Below are positions 15,236 to 23,963 of a stretch of DNA of 64,000 nt, piece after piece. The stretch spans positions 310,001 to 374,000 of the forward strand of contig NZ_QUOK01000004.1 of the NCBI RefSeq assembly GCF_003390325.1, written 5' to 3'. Numbering within the stretch: position 1 is the stretch's first letter; each line of letters opens with the position of its first letter. Source of the stretch: Rhodohalobacter sp. SW132. GTDB taxonomy: Bacteria > Bacteroidota > Rhodothermia > Balneolales > Balneolaceae. A program made the position numbers and the translations under genes. Under the pieces are notes generated by a model, which searched no databases, had not been told where the DNA came from, and saw only the letters and a program-made list of their open reading frames with translations.

Positions 15236-17209
15236 ATGGATTCTGAAAAGAATACATCAAGAGAATTTGGAATACAATCTAATCTTAGCAAAAGAACTTT
15301 AAACATCTTTCTTAAGGAAGGCTTTGAATCTATTTATGACCTTTTAGATTACTATAAAAAACATGGTGATTTCCTTTCAATAAATAGATGCGGTAAAAAG
15401 TCAAACAGAGAATTGATTGAATTGTGTGAGAAATATATTCCCAAAGGGATCAATCACGTTTCAAATAAGATTGAAGAAGTAGAGCCACTCAGTCCTGCAT
15501 TTGAAAGATTGTTCATTCTTCAGTTTAAAGTTTTGTTTAAAAGGTTAAGTACCGAGGCTAAAGATTTCGTTAGATCTAAAATCGGAGTGAATTATCAATT
15601 CAACGACATTATAACAGAACTTTCAAAAACGAAATTTGATGAACAAGAAATTAAAAAAACTACTCTAAACGAAATCTCCACACTTGTACTTGATTACACT
15701 TCTAAGCTTGACAAATTACACGAATTTAGTAGCTCAAAAGAAGTTGAGAGAGAAGTATTTAAGTCAATTTTTCACGGTATAAATATCAAAGATGCTGAAC
15801 TTGAACACTTGTTTGATGAAATAAAACGAGACTATGATTACTACCCTATTTTTAAGATAGCAGATCACGTAATTAGATCAGGCAACATTTTTAAAAATCA
15901 TGAAGACTATATTTTTGAGCATTATTTAAAATATTTTAAGAAGGAAAAATACAAAAATACTTTAGAGGAAGTTGGTTCTGAGCTCGGTTTAACTCCTGAA
16001 AGAGTCAGGCAAATCAGAAATGGATTGTTAAAAAAGTTTTCAAATCAATTTCATTTTATATCAATTTTATCATTTTTTGTCGATGCAGATCAAGCCTATG
16101 GAATCGATGGAGGCAAAAGCTATATTTATCTAACTGATCAGATCGTTGAAAACATAAACCGTAAAGAAAAAACAAATTTCTCAAAACTGTTTATGTCTAA
16201 AGTTTTCATAGCATTGACTGGCGAAAAATTCATGCTATCAGGTTATGAAATGAATTATCACACAACTCTTCAAAAAAGAAAGCGCTTAAGCCTAAAAGAA
16301 CCATACCTGATATCAAAAGAGTTAGATAACTATTTCGATCTTAAGGCTTTTGTTAATGATATAGAAAAAAGGCACGAAGATGGCATTAGGGATACATATA
16401 CTCTAAATCTTAAAACTTATATTTCAAGATTCTGTGAAGAATTTGATCTGGAAAAATTGAATGCTTTAGAAGGACTATGTAAGATTATTGTTTTTAATGA
16501 ATTTGACATGATTGTCAATCACAGAGCTGAATTAGTATTTGAGAGAAATAAGAAAAAGCATTTTTACGAATTAGCACTTGAGGCAATCGAAAAGATGGGG
16601 TTCAATAAAAATGGTTATCACATAAGTCAAATTAGCAACAAAATTAGCGAGCTTTACCCCGATATAGACTATGCTTCTAATATTAATTCGCTAAGAAGTG
16701 CCATCAATAATCATAAAAGCATTTTTATCTACTTTGGGAGAACCAGTACCTACGGCCTCAAATCGTGGGAAGAGAAATTTGATAATGTAAAGGGAGGAAC
16801 CATTCGGGATATAGTTCAGGAATTTCTATTGGATAGAGATTCTCCCCAACATATCTCAGTAATTTTGAATTATGTTAACCAGTTCAGAGATACTGAAGAG
16901 GATAATATTATTGTTAATCTGAAATTAGATAACTCCAAGACGTTTGTAATCTATGATGGCAGATTTATAGGATTGGAAAAGAAAAGTTATGCTGATAAAG
17001 ACCTCGAATTTGTACAACCCAAAGGGTCGATATTCACAAGTGAAAGCCTTAAAAAATATTTACCGGGCAAATTTGAGCATGTAGTACAAGAAATTTGCTC
17101 TGAACATAATTTAAGAGGTGTTCAGGTTTCTTCAATCTTGAAAAAGCAGATACATAATAAACTTTTGAAAATTAATGATACTGAAATAGTAAGGATTAAT
17201 CATGAATAG
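15236..17209 (+). CDS. Composite transcription-factor-like protein: HhH, sigma-region-4-like HTH and two HARE-like winged helices
   Basis: Cytoplasmic 657-residue protein. Residues ~12-65 resemble the helix-hairpin domain of RNA polymerase alpha-CTD (LSKRTLNIFLKEGFESIYDL, then INRCGKKSNRELIEL). Residues ~241-268 are a sigma-70 region-4-type helix-turn-helix with the classical ending LGLTPERVRQIRNGLLKKF. Residues ~443-510 look like a HARE-HTH winged helix (FYELALEAIEKMG, SLRSAINNHKS, FIYFGRTSTYGLKSW), and ~520-585 look like a second, shorter one (TIRDIVQEFL, FVIYDGRFIGL). All parts bind DNA or RNA polymerase in known families, so a transcription regulator or sigma-like factor is likely. The gene is markedly AT-rich compared with its neighbours and stands alone on the plus strand, which suggests horizontal transfer. 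Domain names are from motif recognition, not from a search. Confidence 0.7.
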   Translation: MDSEKNTSREFGIQSNLSKRTLNIFLKEGFESIYDLLDYYKKHGDFLSINRCGKKSNRELIELCEKYIPKGINHVSNKIEEVEPLSPAFERLFILQFKVLFKRLSTEAKDFVRSKIGVNYQFNDIITELSKTKFDEQEIKKTTLNEISTLVLDYTSKLDKLHEFSSSKEVEREVFKSIFHGINIKDAELEHLFDEIKRDYDYYPIFKIADHVIRSGNIFKNHEDYIFEHYLKYFKKEKYKNTLEEVGSELGLTPERVRQIRNGLLKKFSNQFHFISILSFFVDADQAYGIDGGKSYIYLTDQIVENINRKEKTNFSKLFMSKVFIALTGEKFMLSGYEMNYHTTLQKRKRLSLKEPYLISKELDNYFDLKAFVNDIEKRHEDGIRDTYTLNLKTYISRFCEEFDLEKLNALEGLCKIIVFNEFDMIVNHRAELVFERNKKKHFYELALEAIEKMGFNKNGYHISQISNKISELYPDIDYASNINSLRSAINNHKSIFIYFGRTSTYGLKSWEEKFDNVKGGTIRDIVQEFLLDRDSPQHISVILNYVNQFRDTEEDNIIVNLKLDNSKTFVIYDGRFIGLEKKSYADKDLEFVQPKGSIFTSESLKKYLPGKFEHVVQEICSEHNLRGVQVSSILKKQIHNKLLKINDTEIVRINHE

Positions 17210-17747
17210 AGTTGGAGAAATTGGCTCTATTCTATGTGGGTAGCGCGGAATCATGAGATCGCTACAATTACCAATTGCCTGTTACTTATTGCTGTCCCCG
17301 AAATAATCGGGGGCAGGCGGTAAATAACACAAAGAAAGGAGATGCCACACCGTGGCGTGGCATGACATAATTTGTTTACGAATTAACTTCACTAACGCCC
17401 TTTTTGTACTGCTTTTACCATTTTTTTAAATAGAACTCAGGTTAATTAATTTTCTTTCCATTGTAGACTACATCTATCCAGATTTATCTGCAAAAGCACG
17501 TAGGGAATGGGGTGTTCTGCTGGAAAACTATTTATAGCGCGTCATCAAGTCCAATTTAAGGACGATTCTTATCAGACTTTCTCCCAACAACGCCGGTCCA
17601 TAATGGTTTTGGCTGACTTCCCAGCTCTAAGTGAAGCCAGAATCTCCCCAGGCAATAACCGTTCACCATCAACTTAACCCAGCTTCTATTTCTATCGTAA
17701 TTCCTCTATCTTTTGTACTAATCTAAGATTCACAGTTTTTTACCAAC
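17210..17747. other. Gene-poor stretch with two hairpins
   Basis: No supported gene. Two inverted repeats stand out: 17292-17316, where CTGTCCCCGA pairs with TCGGGGGCAG around AATAA with one mismatch, and 17342-17363, where ATGCCAC pairs with GTGGCAT around an 8-base loop. Neither is followed by a T-run. Short protein-like frames on both strands between 17455 and 17670 overlap each other and match nothing I know. The promoter of the following operon should lie at the high end. Confidence 0.45.
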
Positions 17748-19016
17748 ATGCCCAATCTACCGCCCGGCTCTGACCCAAGTATTTCAGTTCTGCTCAACTG
17801 TTTGCACAGGGAGCCACATCGTTTTCCCACAAAACAGCTTACTGAAATGAACCGGAAGCAGTGGAAGCGCCTGGGCGATTGTGCAACTGAACACCGGGTG
17901 GTACCTCTTTTGTATCAAAGGCTTATGGCTGCCGGCGATGGGATCCAAACCGAAGCCTCACGTTCTTCACTTGAGTATATGAGTGCATACAGCCGGCAGG
18001 TATCTAAAAACAATCTTCTTTTCTACGGGGAACTTCGCAAACTGCTATCAGCGCTTGATGAAAAAAACATCCCCGTTATTCTCTTGAAGGGCATCTATCT
18101 TGCGGAGCACGTCTATGAAAATCGCGGGCTGCGGGAGATGAATGACATGGATCTTCTTTTCAAAAAAGAACACCTTGAAATAGTTTACCAATTACTGACT
18201 GAGATGGGGTATCAACCAATATCTCACGTATATATGAATGATATTAATCAAATCATTCAAATCAACAAACATTTACCCAGGCTCATAAAAAAAGATGTTG
18301 CCGGTATTGAAATTCACTGGAATATTACGAAACCAGGCAGATCATATCATATTGAACCTGATGGTATCATTCAAAGAGCTTCACCCATAAATAAAGCCGG
18401 CGTTAATGCTCTCTCATTAACAGCAGAGGATTTGCTTCTTCACCTTTGTCTGCATACCTCGTACCAACACAATTTTGCGTTCGGTTTGCGCCCATTTTGT
18501 GATTTGAAGACGGTGATTGACCGGTTTGATAAGCTGGACTGGGATGAAGTTTGTTCCCGATCGGCCGAATATGGATGGAGACGGGGCGTTCTTCTCTCCC
18601 TGGTGATTGCAAAAGATTTTTTGGGTGCGGATGTACCCGAAGACATAATAAAACGGCTTCATGCGGATGATTCTATTCCCGCACTTGTGGAGACAGCCCG
18701 GAGGCAAATCCTGACAAAAAAAGAAGATTCGAAAGCAGCCGGAAATGCTGTTATAACTTTTGCATCTGCTGAGGGCTTGACCGGAAAAACATCTGCGGTA
18801 ATCAAGCGCCTTTTTATATCCAAAGATCAGATGATTGCAAAGTATCCAATTCGCCCCGGCTCCCCGATGATCTATCTTTGGTACCTGGTCCGGTTTGGCC
18901 AGATGATATGGTTCCATACCTCTAAAATACTACGCGTTTCACGCGGTGATCCGGAGTACACCGGCATCATCGAACGAAAAGAAGAATTACACTCCTGGTT
19001 GAATAAAGAAAATTAG
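17748..19016 (+). CDS. Nucleotidyltransferase family protein (NTP_transf_5-like) of a RiPP-type cluster
   Basis: Cytoplasmic 422-residue protein of the Pol-beta-like nucleotidyltransferase clan. The signature is present: ILLKG at 111-115, then an Arg, then the acidic pair in NDMDLLF (Asp133 and Asp135), and a third acidic position in GIEIHW (187-191). LHLCLHTSYQ downstream is the usual helical follow-up. Members of this family often sit next to PqqD, HPr-kinase-like and lasso-B2 genes, as here, and are thought to modify a peptide or sugar with a nucleotide, but the substrate is not known. It is the first gene of a four-gene plus-strand run (17748-21170). The gap to the next gene is 175 bases, longer than the others, so a second promoter is possible. 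Confidence 0.85.
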   Translation: MPNLPPGSDPSISVLLNCLHREPHRFPTKQLTEMNRKQWKRLGDCATEHRVVPLLYQRLMAAGDGIQTEASRSSLEYMSAYSRQVSKNNLLFYGELRKLLSALDEKNIPVILLKGIYLAEHVYENRGLREMNDMDLLFKKEHLEIVYQLLTEMGYQPISHVYMNDINQIIQINKHLPRLIKKDVAGIEIHWNITKPGRSYHIEPDGIIQRASPINKAGVNALSLTAEDLLLHLCLHTSYQHNFAFGLRPFCDLKTVIDRFDKLDWDEVCSRSAEYGWRRGVLLSLVIAKDFLGADVPEDIIKRLHADDSIPALVETARRQILTKKEDSKAAGNAVITFASAEGLTGKTSAVIKRLFISKDQMIAKYPIRPGSPMIYLWYLVRFGQMIWFHTSKILRVSRGDPEYTGIIERKEELHSWLNKEN

Positions 19017-19191
19017 ATGATTCTGTGGAAATGTGGTTATAAAACGGGTTTCTGCATTTATCTTGTCTGTCCATACCTACATTTTATAACTCAAATTATA
19101 ACTCAACCATGTTAAGAGTTTTCAGTATTCATTTATCATTGATCGATGTTGAGTTCAGTTTCCGGCAATAGTTTCGTATTTTTTGTACCGC

Positions 19192-20214
19192 ATGAAAAAG
19201 CTTTCTACACACATTCCTGCCGATTTTCCATCCGTCGATGAACTCTATTCTATTTATGGAAAGAGGGTCAGAAGCAACTACCCAATGCCACTTCCGCAGG
19301 CCGGGGACGGACTGGTGGATCTTACGATCCGGTATGACGGAATTGTACCGAAAACTGAGGACCGCTCCCCAAACACCATGTACCGCACCTGGCAAAAAGA
19401 AGGAAAGAGTTGGCACCTGCGAATTTATAATCAATATGGGCACACTAATGAGTTCTCTTTTAGCGGGGATGGAACTGATATTCGTGCGACCCAAAGCTGG
19501 CCGGAGTGGCGTGATACGCTTTTCAACCTGATGAACGTGGTGATGGCCTCTGCGGCATCAATCCAGGGAGATAACATATTGCACGCATCATCGCTCGTCC
19601 GCCACGATAAAGCGTTGCTGATAACCGGAATCAGTGGTGCCGGGAAATCATCTCTTTCGGCCGCATTTGCCGCCAACGGCTTTTCGGTGCATTCTGATGA
19701 TATCGCCCTCATTCAAAATGATAATGATGGTAACCCGGTTGTGATGCCGGGCTATCCGCGGATCAAAGTGAAACCGGGCATAACGAAGTATGTAGAGAAT
19801 TTGAATGGTGCGAACCTGATTCCGCTTACTGTTGATTCTGATGCGCTAAGGGCCGTTGAAAAACTGAATGGCCTCAACCAGGGAATTGAGGACGCTGAAA
19901 AATGGCTCACGGCCGGTGAACTGCCCGGGGGATTTTATGACAGTCCGGCCCCGGTTCATGCAATACTAATTCTTGATGAGCGCAGAGAAGATATCAGCGT
20001 TCCGGTTGTTACGGAAATGAAGAATGCGCAGGCGGTGATGGGTCTTGTCGAGCATATCTATGGCCGGGAGTGGCTCAATCTGCCAGGACAAAAATCGCTG
20101 GAATTTTGTATACAGCTTGCCAGCCGGTTGCCGGTCTACAGGGTAAACTTGCCGGACAACCTGCACCTTCTGCCGGCATCGGCTGATCTGCTGTACCGGG
20201 AAATCATGGGCTAA
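19192..20214 (+). CDS. HPr kinase/phosphorylase-like protein
   Basis: Cytoplasmic 340-residue kinase related to the C-terminal domain of HPr kinase. The P-loop is GISGAGKSS at 146-154, preceded by the conserved LHASSLV, and followed by HSDDIALI at 167-174, which holds the catalytic Asp pair. The N-terminal ~120 residues replace the HprK regulatory domain. Homologues in lasso peptide clusters phosphorylate the C-terminus of the precursor peptide (known for Paenibacillus-type clusters), so peptide phosphorylation is a reasonable guess; carbohydrate regulation via HPr is less likely. The ATG at 19192 is preferred to a TTG nine bases upstream. Ten bases separate its stop from the start of the B2-like protease gene. 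Confidence 0.87.
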   Translation: MKKLSTHIPADFPSVDELYSIYGKRVRSNYPMPLPQAGDGLVDLTIRYDGIVPKTEDRSPNTMYRTWQKEGKSWHLRIYNQYGHTNEFSFSGDGTDIRATQSWPEWRDTLFNLMNVVMASAASIQGDNILHASSLVRHDKALLITGISGAGKSSLSAAFAANGFSVHSDDIALIQNDNDGNPVVMPGYPRIKVKPGITKYVENLNGANLIPLTVDSDALRAVEKLNGLNQGIEDAEKWLTAGELPGGFYDSPAPVHAILILDERREDISVPVVTEMKNAQAVMGLVEHIYGREWLNLPGQKSLEFCIQLASRLPVYRVNLPDNLHLLPASADLLYREIMG

Positions 20215-20224
20215 TTCTGATCTT

Positions 20225-20782
20225 ATGCAAAATAAAAGTAAATATACCGCTTCTAAACCCGCAACGACGGGATTAGTAACAAGGTTTTTCAGTAAACCGG
20301 CCCGTTATCGCAGGCGACTGATGGAGGCGCTCTTTTGGATTGCTGTCATGCGATTTGTGATAAGATTCCTGCCATTCCGGGTGCTGAAGAGACTGGTCGG
20401 GGGTTCCGAAGGTCGCGTTCATGACCGTCAGGATAGATCGCACCTGGAATCTGGATCAATAATGGAAATGGAAACAACTATAGAAGCGTCAGACGGCGCA
20501 GTCGAGACTGTTCAGGATATCGTTAGGGCTGTCAGATCGGTGAGCCGGAGAACTCCATGGGAGAGTAAGTGCCTGGTTCAATCATCTGCTGCAAAAATCA
20601 TGATGAATAAGGCGGGTATTCCAAGTGAATTATGCCTCGGAGTACTGAAGCCGGGTTCTGCACAAAGATCAGAATCCGGCAAAAATGAGATGCGTCCCCA
20701 CGCCTGGCTCATTGCCGAAAACCACGTGGTGCTTGGAGGAGAGAACCTTGAACAATACGTGATGGTATCACGGTTTAGATGA
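20225..20782 (+). CDS. Lasso peptide biosynthesis B2-like protease (transglutaminase-like)
   Basis: 185-residue cysteine protease of the B2 kind, which removes the leader from lasso precursors. The catalytic Cys is Cys116 in PWESKCLVQS, and the catalytic His is His159 in RPHAWLI; the third residue, usually Asp/Glu, is probably in the AENHVVLGG turn. The N-terminal part has a hydrophobic helix (EALFWIAVMRFVIRFLPF) that is also common in B2 proteins and may hold it at the membrane. It follows the kinase gene closely and is followed 106 bases later by the PqqD-like B1 gene. A spacer between the helix and the protease domain (about 60-95) is polar and probably flexible. The missing partner is the asparagine-synthetase-like cyclase, which is not in the window. 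Confidence 0.87.
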   Translation: MQNKSKYTASKPATTGLVTRFFSKPARYRRRLMEALFWIAVMRFVIRFLPFRVLKRLVGGSEGRVHDRQDRSHLESGSIMEMETTIEASDGAVETVQDIVRAVRSVSRRTPWESKCLVQSSAAKIMMNKAGIPSELCLGVLKPGSAQRSESGKNEMRPHAWLIAENHVVLGGENLEQYVMVSRFR

Positions 20783-20888
20783 CGTTTAGATGAAAGCGAA
20801 TTTAAAATTTCAGTCTTTTTAGAAGCTATCAACAAACGTATTGTTAACAGATAAAAGAAACTAAACCAACCAAAAGATTACCTCATAT

Positions 20889-21170
20889 ATGATTACTCCA
20901 AATAGTAAAATTAAACGGTCGTCCCGTCCCCTCTCCTCGCAGGTTGCCGATGAACTGGTGATGTTTGATACAGAATCAGGCAAATATTATGGATTAAACA
21001 ACATAGCCACTGAAGTCTGGAATAAGATTGAAGAACCTGTTACGGTTGAGGAACTGTGCAGAGCACTGACGGATGAGTTTGATGTGACACCTCAGCAATG
21101 CCGCGAGGATATGCTGGAGTTCCTGCCGCAACTGGTGGAGAAAGGTTTGATTGAGGTTGAAAAAGTCTGA
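20889..21170 (+). CDS. PqqD family protein (RiPP recognition element, lasso B1-like)
   Basis: 93-residue stand-alone RRE of the PqqD family. The pattern is typical: RPLSSQVADELVMFDTESGKYYGLNNIATEVWNKIEEPVTVEELCRALTDEFDV, a winged helix-turn-helix in which the first strand binds the leader peptide, then a helix QCREDMLEFLPQLVEKGLIE. It should bind the leader of a precursor peptide and deliver it to the B2-like protease and the kinase. It ends the plus-strand cluster. No precursor gene is seen on the plus strand; the best candidate lies convergently at 21580-21744. Confidence 0.9.
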   Translation: MITPNSKIKRSSRPLSSQVADELVMFDTESGKYYGLNNIATEVWNKIEEPVTVEELCRALTDEFDVTPQQCREDMLEFLPQLVEKGLIEVEKV

Positions 21171-21201
21171 ATGACGTGAAGTGCATGGAGAGACATTAGG
21201 A

Positions 21202-21542
21202 AGACATGGTATTTCTCAGGACCTGTAACCCAGCGTCAGCTGGTACTTTGTAGATGTTCAAATGCTGAGAATGGTGTTATTGTACAGAAATGCCATGTCT
21301 GTTAGGTGAGAGGAATAGACATGGTATTTCTCAAGATTCAGAGTTTGGCATGGATTGGGAAGTTGTTGAAGTTCCAAAACTGGGAATGGAGATTTTGAAT
21401 TGAATTACAATATATTGGGACAGGGAGTCAAGTGTGAAAGAGACATCGCATTTCTGAGGACTGGAAGTTTTGCACGGTCAATAGTCTTTAAGGACGCAAG
21501 CAGGCAAAATAATTGTGCTAATACACGAGAAATGCCATGCCT
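21202..21542. repeat. Five copies of a 16-bp motif in both orientations
   Basis: Consensus AGACATGGCATTTCTC. Copies: 21202-21217 (direct), 21285-21300 (inverted), 21317-21332 (direct, identical to the first), 21441-21456 (direct, diverged) and 21527-21542 (inverted). Direct/inverted pairs could fold into long hairpins. The rest of this ~400-base stretch between the PqqD-like gene and the small gene at 21580 holds no other gene that I can support. Confidence 0.7.
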
Positions 21543-21579
21543 GACGTTCGTGCTAGTCTGCTTGGTAATAACGCATCGC

Positions 21580-21744
21580 TTAAGAGACTTGTTGAGGGGA
21601 ATACGGCAGTCCCGGTTGTTGTTCGGTATTGCGAAAGTCTTCCTCCATAACTTTCGGTTTAGTCCAGGGCCGTTTGGACAGGTTGGGCTTCTGGGCTTTT
21701 TGCTGCGGGTCGTGCTTGTGCTGGTCGCTGGATGCTCTGTTCAT
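21580..21744 (-). CDS. Small protein, candidate RiPP precursor peptide
   Basis: 54-residue frame: a polar N-terminal half rich in Gln, His and Lys (MNRASSDQHKHDPQQKAQK), then KRPWTKPKVMEEDFRNTEQQ and a short tail ending in SPQQVS. The segment WTKPKV resembles the YxxPxL element that B1/PqqD proteins recognise in lasso-type leaders, and a Thr follows 8 residues later, where leaders often have a conserved Thr. The tail after Thr does not start with Gly, so a classical lasso ring is not obvious. It is antisense to, and lies 410 bases beyond, the PqqD-like gene, and 45 bases downstream of the stop of the secreted protein gene 21790-23682 on the same strand. No ribosome-binding site is evident. 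The reading is a motif-based hypothesis. Confidence 0.45.
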   Translation of the reverse strand: MNRASSDQHKHDPQQKAQKPNLSKRPWTKPKVMEEDFRNTEQQPGLPYSPQQVS

Positions 21745-21789
21745 AATGCTTAAATTTTAAGAAATAAAAAGGTCTGTTGTAATTCGGCG

Positions 21790-23682
21790 TTATTTAATCA
21801 ATGTCATGCGGCGGGTCATCGAACCCTGACCGGTATCCAGATGATAGATGTAGGTGCCGCTGGAGAGGTTCGAGGCGTCAAAGGTTACTTCGTGCGTTCC
21901 AGCGTTCATCTGCCCATTGACCAGCGTTGCCACTTTCCGTCCGGTGATATCGAAGACGTTTAGGGTTACGTGGCTCTGCTCCGGCAGCGCGTAGCTGATG
22001 ACCGTGCTCGGGTTAAACGGGTTCGGGTAGTTTTGCCGCAGGCTCAGCTCCGTTGGTAGTTCTGCCGGGCCGTCGATGCTTACCGAGGTTTTTGCGGAGA
22101 TGACAAACCGCGGGCTGTCTCCGGAGCTTTTGGCCATTTTAGGTCCTTCGGCAAGAAGCGCCATCGGATCGGTAACGGCTTTTTGCCGATGCCCCTCAAG
22201 CGTAAATTCATACTCAGTTTGCCCGTTTAGCTCAATGGCTACGTTTTCCCTGCGATCTTCCAGGAACAGCGGCTGGCCGAAAGAACCGTTGATCTCGGTG
22301 GTACGAAGTGTATAGGTACCGGGCAGGGTGGCGTCTACCTCCAGGGGCAGTTCAAAGTCGCTGCCGGGCCGGGGCAGCATGCTGATGTCGAACAGCCCGC
22401 CGGTTTTCTTCCCAGCAAGCAGAGTGTGATCTGCAGAAAGCGGCTGAAGCTGGTGAGCGTCGCCCTTAGTCTGCTCCAAAGAGCCGCCTTCGCTAAAGAC
22501 CATCCAGGCGGAGTTGCTCATGCCTTGCCCGCTGAGCTCCAGGCGAATGACGTCACGTTCGGGCTGTTTACCAAGAAAACCGCCTTTAATTATGGCGTCC
22601 TCCGTAAATTCAACAGAACCATTACTCCCAATAGTCTGGACAAAAAAGCCCTGGAACGGGGCGAGGATACCGAGTTCAATATCACCTGCTGTACCATTCC
22701 ATGTTTTCCAGCTTCCTGAACCGACTAGTCCATCTTCGGTATCACCACCGGCATTACCACTTTCATCGTTTACATCCCAAACGTAAACAACGTCCGTCAG
22801 GTTGGTTTTCGCTAACTGATCAAAGAATATGGGGGAAGCAAACGGGTTGCCGAGCAGCGTCCAGCCTCCATTATTACTGTTTGCATCTTGCGTAAATCCT
22901 GCGCTGTTTTCCTCACCGCTCACGGACAACGTCTTGGGAAAAGAGCCTTCCACATCGAACTCATCATCCTGGAATACATAGACCAGGATCCCGGTACCCG
23001 CGCTGATCGTGCCGGACAGATCGGTTACCCCGATCCAGTTGTCGCGGGAGTTTCCCGTAGCGGTGTTATCCCATGTAAATACGTTGGGATCGCCATTACT
23101 GGTATTGCCGCCAACGGCACCCTGGGTATAGATGGGAGAGAGGAAGTCTGAAAACGAAGTCTCTACAGGGGTGGAGAGCAGGCGGTAGCCTTCGAGGCCG
23201 GTGATTTGAACTGTCGATTTTTTCACTTTTCCTGAGAGAATAACAGTAACATTTTCTGTCCCGGAAGAACTCAATGTAATATTACCACTATATGTATCTG
23301 CACCCAGACCGGCAGCTAATCTCACATAAATCGTTTCAGAAACTGAACCTCCTGATTGGGAAAGGGTAATGTTACTATTTGTGAACCCGCTGCCGGGTGT
23401 TGTACTGATTTCGAAATTAGAAGGAGGTGCTACTGTGATATCTCCCCCAAGATCTGTGCCTTCAACAGTAAAGCTTTGCTCATTGGATGGACCGGAACCT
23501 TCAAGATAATCCAAGCCAGATAAGCTTGATGGATTTTCATCAATTATTGGATCACTAACAAGGTTCTCGGGCGATATGCTATGCCCGTGCCCCACCTGCA
23601 TCCCAAACAATAAAATCACCAAAGTAGCTGCGGCCGCGGTTGTAATCAATTTGCGAAGAAAAGGCTGTATTGTCTGTTTCAT
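21790..23682 (-). CDS. Secreted protein with C-terminal sorting (T9SS type A/FlgD-like) domain
   Basis: Secreted 630-residue protein. The signal peptide is [28 protein letters not shown]. Residues ~60-150 form a beta-sandwich ([35 protein letters not shown]) seen in many surface proteins of this phylum. The middle part ([27 protein letters not shown]) is typical of large secreted proteins that carry sorting domains. The last ~85 residues are the sorting module: [19 protein letters not shown], then [19 protein letters not shown] and [22 protein letters not shown], recognised by type IX-like secretion in this group. The start at 23682 is the ATG; a TTG four codons before it is rejected. Function of the passenger is unknown. 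It borders the RiPP-type cluster and the polysaccharide locus. Confidence 0.88.
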
Positions 23683-23963
23683 GTGAGTACCCAAGTGTGT
23701 ATTGTAGTTTGCCAGTTTAAATCAAATTTAGCAGGGAAAAGAATCCCCATTACTATGCTGCTGAATTTGTCAGTGTTAAATCTTTTTCTGGAATATTTTT
23801 AAAAGTATTTGGCCGAAGTCCGATTTATTGGAAACGGAGTGATACAGGCCTCCCGAAGCCAGTGTTATACTGGTCCTGATATTCGCGATCAGATCTCCTA
23901 TCGTTAGTATTGGCTGGAGATGACAGCCAGTGGCAGATTTTTCTGTCAAATCTTCCATCATAA

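Follow-up and report, generated by a model that had tools for sequence, protein, structure and literature searches.

The minus strand of the 64,000-nucleotide stretch of Rhodohalobacter sp. SW132 DNA analysed here (the window) almost certainly carries a real small gene (PREC, 21580–21744), which probably encodes a precursor peptide. Its product is likely a RiPP of the lasso machinery made without a cyclase: linear, phosphorylated, and probably glycosylated. Sequence comparison supports the gene and its conservation, the leader spacing, the intact enzyme motifs, the lack of a cyclase in the clusters, and the pairing with a gene for a T9SS cargo protein.

The frame (54 aa, ATG start) translates as MNRASSDQHKHDPQQKAQKPNLSKRPWTKPKVMEEDFRNTEQQPGLPYSPQQVS and is convergent to the B1 gene (20889–21170, plus strand). 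Both this frame and the open antisense frame opposite (21400–21753, plus strand; 117 aa, TTG start) were found as the initial annotation had described them. The predicted RRE-binding motif is WTKPKV (21649–21666, minus strand), following the motif definition in the available part of PMC13381572. Residues W27, P30, V32, and T40 take positions –15, –12, –10, and –2, and PbaA is numbered there with the same spacing. We placed the leader boundary by the W–15/P–12/T–2 spacing of all seven homologues, together with the PbaA numbering. The W(–15)/T(–2) spacing puts the leader end at E41 (–1), so that the leader region would comprise residues 1–41 (21622–21744, minus strand) and the core would be QQPGLPYSPQQVS (21583–21621, minus strand). 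This core has no Asp or Glu and ends in Ser. With the leader ending in T(–2)–E(–1), the first core residue is Gln rather than Glu, a small correction to the initial annotation.

PREC has the lasso-type leader pattern, [Y/W]xxPx[LVIAFY] with Thr or Ile at –2. Taken alone, the leader motif is near chance and is no evidence for PREC. Compared with 40 Markov-shuffled windows, [YW]xxPx[LIVAFY] occurred in 38 of 528 window ORFs of 30–110 aa (shuffled mean 30.4). The motif with Thr 13 residues past the aromatic residue was found twice (1.45 in shuffled windows), as was the strict W motif with a tail of 8–30 residues (0.2). The significance of PREC derives from its place and conservation, not from the motif. 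No better precursor was found near the cluster, where only four motif ORFs of 25–120 aa overlap 17200–23800. Between B1 and PREC, we also observed five copies (up to 2 mismatches) of the 15-nt sequence AGACATGGCATTTCT at 21202–21543. They stand in direct and inverted order, and no further copy was found in the 64 kb (expected number 0.17); apparently, they delimit elements about 100 bp long.

Seven peptides in six Balneolales genomes make up the PREC family: one each in the window genome (G000), G053, G459, G466, and G465, and two in G467. Among 92 family genomes searched, 7 gave matches at E ≤ 0.1, and only the own match and the G053 homologue stood out (E 8.1e-6; 5e-11 by pairwise BLASTP). 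As in the window, the G053 gene is convergent to B1 and lies just behind a T9SS gene. Over 29 aligned codons, PREC and its G053 homologue differ 10, 6, and 22 times at codon positions 1, 2, and 3, the same pattern as for B1 and the nucleotidyltransferase-fold protein (NTF). Similarity in the flanking DNA did not rise above noise, and in G053 a stop interrupts the long antisense frame. The changes suggest a purifying pattern between distant copies. A profile of these two precursors, run over 394 phylum genomes, matched 15 at E ≤ 0.05, a number that does not exceed chance expectation, and only the own match was strong. One weak match (0.0116) was the lasso precursor of G064.

An order-wide search with NTF matched 7 of 128 genomes and led to G467, G466, G459, G464, and G078. 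The NTF-led loci yielded extra precursors in G467 (two), G459 (one), and G466 (one). A class-wide search was then based on a profile of six aligned PREC-family peptides, and 8 of 244 genomes matched at E ≤ 0.001. All seven family members were found at E ≤ 1.4e-13, including the G465 peptide (9.7e-14), which is absent from the profile. The same profile also reached the lasso precursors of G064 (1.6e-4) and G052 (2.8e-4). By eye, W(–15), P(–12), and Thr or Ile(–2) have identical spacing in all seven peptides; Ile(–2) was validated for BsfA, according to the available part of PMC10368454. Ser is the C-terminal residue in six, and Thr in the G459 peptide. Thus, the proposed resemblance to B1-dependent precursors, with a WxxPx[VIL] leader and a conserved Thr, held in the homologues, where W and P are invariant and Thr or Ile takes position –2. 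The tail was expected to vary freely; instead, a Pro-rich pattern is kept with Ser at the end.

The search for homologous short frames near PqqD, B2, and HprK genes in other Balneolota, suggested in the initial annotation, was positive. In five of the six precursor genomes, B1, B2, HprK-like kinase, or nucleotidyltransferase genes lie on the same contig, and B1 and NTF both stand beside the precursor in four (G000, G053, G466, G467). The G465 precursor is not near any B1. Neither B2 nor HprK was seen on the short precursor contigs of G053, G466, and G459. No precursor was found on the 8-kb contig of G464 (with B1, B2, NTF, ABC, and T9SS genes), the 6.2-kb contig of G077 with B1, or the 3.7-kb NTF contig of G078. 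A contig scan with an NTF alignment returned four loci: GSL.Bin13, the G053 record itself, and two distant ones. The GSL.Bin13 locus (3.7-kb contig) contained NTF and no other cluster gene.

In the window, NTF, the HprK-like kinase, B2, and B1 follow one another in this order, all on the plus strand. NTF (17748–19016; PF14907, 1.1e-58) has a putative PsmN/LppN-like role. The 343-aa HprK-related kinase (19183–20214) matched TIGR04352 at 4e-11, far below the family cut-offs; in the alignment, it keeps the His, the P-loop Lys, and the Asp–Asp of the motif given in the available part of PMC9266682. B2 (20225–20782; NF033537, 9.3e-21) is a predicted transglutaminase-like leader peptidase with the conserved Cys and His present in the alignment. 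The B2 proteins of the window, G467, and G464 form one clade (support 98/97) apart from the other B2s. No archaeal-type or SipW-like leader peptidase was found among the scanned cluster ORFs, and B2 is present instead. By sequence, neither the kinase nor B2 has a solved relative.

B1 is a discrete RRE of the PqqD family (PF05402, 4e-22), and its closest solved relative is the PbaB1–leader complex (9x90, E 1e-12). The contact residues listed in the available part of PMC13381572 correspond to Y34, L36, I39, V43, L60, F64, V66, F78, L82, and L87. The hydrophobic leader contacts are retained or swapped for similar residues, and the leader-binding pocket thus appears to be kept. At the discriminating positions (PbaB1 42/79), B1 has N37 and D74, as in LppB, in contrast to the G and Q of paeninodin RREs. 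B1 carries this Tyr-type pair although the PREC leader has Trp. The combination is no contradiction, because the PbaB1 G42N/Q79D mutant retains binding of the W leader (PMC13381572, available part). The B1 tree was mostly without resolution and showed no precursor-associated clade. In other Balneolaceae, we observed a mini-cassette of an HprK-like kinase (about 280 aa) and B1 near an ScpA-like gene (L084:7871–9193, L086:8380–9688, also L081, L082, and L083). In L084 and L086, a WxKPxI peptide ORF of 25–35 aa lies between the two genes; no B2 or cyclase was seen near the cassettes of L081–L084 and L086.

The exopolysaccharide locus next to the window cluster (23964–51056, minus strand; several names by reading ORFs) is given as context only. 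It contains sugar transferase, YjbH parts, glycosyltransferases, and Wzx/Wzc-like genes. In G467 (98% complete), the full set, an ABC exporter, and two precursors lie within about 18 kb. The order is ABC transporter, B1, two T9SS genes, precursor, NTF, histidine kinase, B2, HprK, second precursor, and two T9SS genes; a Wzc-type exopolysaccharide locus follows, as in the window (Wzc by reading). An ABC transporter, a candidate MsbA-like exporter, is found in the relatives G467 and G464, and no ABC exporter was found in the window cluster.

By analogy with the described relatives, B1 would bind the WTKPKV leader element, and the HprK-like kinase would phosphorylate the C-terminal Ser of the core. 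Kinases of this type target the precursor's C-terminal Ser (PMC9266682, available part), and this residue is present in the window peptide. NTF could further decorate the phosphate, as PsmN puts a hexose on the phosphorylated Ser in pseudomycoidin (same source). Cleavage by B2 after T(–2)–E(–1) would yield QQPGLPYSPQQVS, a linear peptide rich in Pro and about 13 residues long. No ring would be expected in this product, since both a cyclase gene and an acceptor Asp or Glu are missing. Judged from gene context, the product may be exported and act on the cell surface together with the T9SS cargo protein, whose gene lies immediately upstream.

The missing cyclase and the doubtful ring formation had been remarked upon from the outset, and both points stand. 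No lasso cyclase was found in the window, on any precursor stretch of the family, or in the G467 cluster; the sole Asn-synthetase-family match of G467 sits on another contig. The absence of the cyclase is a feature of the precursor family, not a local loss. It is improbable that the cluster is what is left of a lasso cluster in decay, in which the cyclase has disappeared and the precursor is a dying gene. This explanation can draw on seven family genomes (G053 contig C256, G058, G065, G062, G047, G066, G069) in which the stretch read holds B2 alone or B2 with B1 and shows no cyclase. It is opposed by the purifying pattern between distant precursor copies, the intact motifs in B1, B2, and HprK, and cores without a ring acceptor. 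Another family (G467) also has this set without a cyclase, together with two precursors. The seven Balneolaceae loci themselves (L021, L023, L024, L025, L026, L029, L032) have mostly similar gene neighbourhoods and are apparently decayed lasso loci.

A feature beyond the initial annotation is the pairing of PREC with a T9SS cargo protein gene on its own strand (21790–23694, minus strand; PF18962/TIGR04183), which lies 45 nt upstream. No terminator-like site was found between the two genes. In all six assessable cases, the gene immediately preceding the precursor on the same strand is a T9SS cargo gene homologous to that of the window. In the seventh case, G466, the precursor starts near the contig end. 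The gaps are 45 nt in the window, 35 nt in G053, 79 nt in G465, and 350 nt in G459. For G467, they are 32 nt (TTG start) or 77 nt (ATG start) for the first copy and 55 nt for the second. Homologues of the window T9SS protein were found in 63 of 92 family genomes. The constant position behind the cargo gene and the G465 copy away from B1 would also suit an uncleaved small T9SS-linked protein, for which B1 is merely a binding partner or regulator. We consider this improbable, to about the same degree as the decayed cluster, since the leader-like W–15…T–2 spacing is exact in seven of seven peptides, the C-terminal Ser is accompanied by a kinase, and B1 and NTF stand beside the precursor in four of six genomes.

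A cleaved and modified product, as proposed above, can be compared with the PID-CTERM proteins (NCBIfam NF046080). Their genes share the position directly after a homologous T9SS gene, and the core of PREC appears to resemble their exported N-terminus, which has QPGLPxxPxQ in many. They differ in having a signal peptide, a hydrophobic segment, and a basic tail, whereas PREC has an RRE leader and a C-terminal Ser. Small proteins of PID-CTERM type were seen directly behind T9SS cargo genes in Balneolaceae (L091, L093, L094, L096, L097, L103, L105, L106). In a sample of 26 PID-CTERM matches from 17 picked genomes, several of them chosen as known carriers, 17 follow a listed T9SS homologue downstream at no more than 1.5 kb. 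Of the six genomes with a precursor, four (G000, G459, G465, G467) have no PID-CTERM match, G053 has two, and G466 has one weak match; none was found in G077, G078, or G464.

A profile of the seven cores ranked PID-CTERM proteins 1, 2, 3, and 5 among 7520 small ORFs; loci retrieved through the PID search had been excluded from this set. With 200 column-permuted profiles, the best score was never attained, nor did three PID-CTERM proteins ever appear in the top five. With a profile of the four cores without PG[LM]P, they still ranked 3, 5, 7, and 13. Per sequence, the likeness is weak (E 0.16 at best), and it amounts to roughly one observation because the PID proteins are mutually related. We offer only as a speculation, itself rather doubtful, that the RiPP machinery took over a protein-sorting job, with the two systems providing equivalent tags on the surface for the benefit of the T9SS cargo. 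The PID-CTERM protein would expose QPGLPxxPxQ while held by its C-terminal sorting tail. In PREC, the RRE leader would replace the signal peptide, and the C-terminal Ser, which could be phosphorylated and glycosylated next to an exopolysaccharide locus, would replace the sorting tail. Our literature search found no paper on 'PID-CTERM' and none linking a lasso peptide with type IX secretion.

That PREC encodes a true lasso peptide with a cyclase elsewhere in the genome is very unlikely. The window genome does have two Asn-synthetase-family genes, on contigs C3 and C1, and two of the seven family cores have an acid at a ring-capable position (D7 in G053, D8 in G466). However, similarity of the C1 protein to the G064 and G068 lasso cyclases is confined to short segments (E about 1e-3), and the C3 protein shares none, whereas these two cyclases match each other over 525 aa. 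Moreover, Asp and Glu are wholly absent from the window core, and five of seven family cores lack an acid at positions 7–9. Where sampled clusters combine a cyclase with a precursor (G052, G064, G068), an acid occurs at core position 7–8. The Asn-synthetase relative on C3 (442 aa; L040:9382–13420) lies beside apparent radical SAM and FAD-dependent (halogenase-like) genes, by reading. Finally, a chance open frame is hardly conceivable: the motif alone is near chance expectation, but the idea is already contradicted by the homologues, with seven family members, codon-position bias, and non-conserved flanks.

Among known systems, the linear polyphosphorylated peptides of Bacillota (LPPs; Popov et al. 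2026, PMC13381572) come with a discrete RRE, an HprK-like kinase, an NTP-transferase, a polysaccharide-locus context, and no cyclase, all shared with the window cluster according to the available part of that paper. A candidate for the MsbA-like exporter lies in the relatives G467 and G464. The window cluster comes from another phylum and differs in having a canonical B2 in place of the SipW-like signal peptidase. The LPP precursor motif YxxPxVLxHQxIxFETxxS is unmatched, as the window peptide has a W leader and WTKPKVMEEDFRNTEQQ. It further has a short Pro-rich core, a C-terminal Ser instead of Ser3, and a T9SS partner gene. An LPP-like set was also seen in a Bacillota MAG (L061:5210–11096), with a 68-aa WxxPxL peptide, B1, NTF, and one protein combining signal-peptidase I and GNAT domains.

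The paeninodin/pseudomycoidin type (PMC9266682, available part) shares the WxxPx[VLI] leader, B1, B2, an HprK-like kinase, a nucleotidyltransferase, and the C-terminal Ser, but the window lacks the cyclase and the ring acceptor in the core. The lasso precursors of G052, G064, and G068, from the same family, share the leader spacing and C-terminal Ser with PREC and differ in their acidic Gly-rich cores, the acid at 7–8, and the cyclase gene. Of the lasso-class features, the B1 and B2 proteins and the leader motif are present in the window, and the cyclase and the core acid at 7–9 are absent. The product should be classed neither as a lasso peptide, given the lack of cyclase and acceptor, nor as an LPP, given its other peptidase and other precursor motif. 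The passages searched in PMC10352776 gave no match to the PREC system. The product probably behaves as a linear phosphorylated relative of lasso peptides and LPPs alike. As far as the available parts of the literature extend (2026), cyclase-less relatives of phosphorylated lasso peptides have been described for Bacillota only. A separate set in Balneolales, with another kind of leader peptidase, suggests that RiPPs of the linear lasso type extend more widely and perhaps have more than one origin. The link to T9SS and the PID-CTERM-like core provide a new and concrete lead to a possible role in cell-surface attachment or display.
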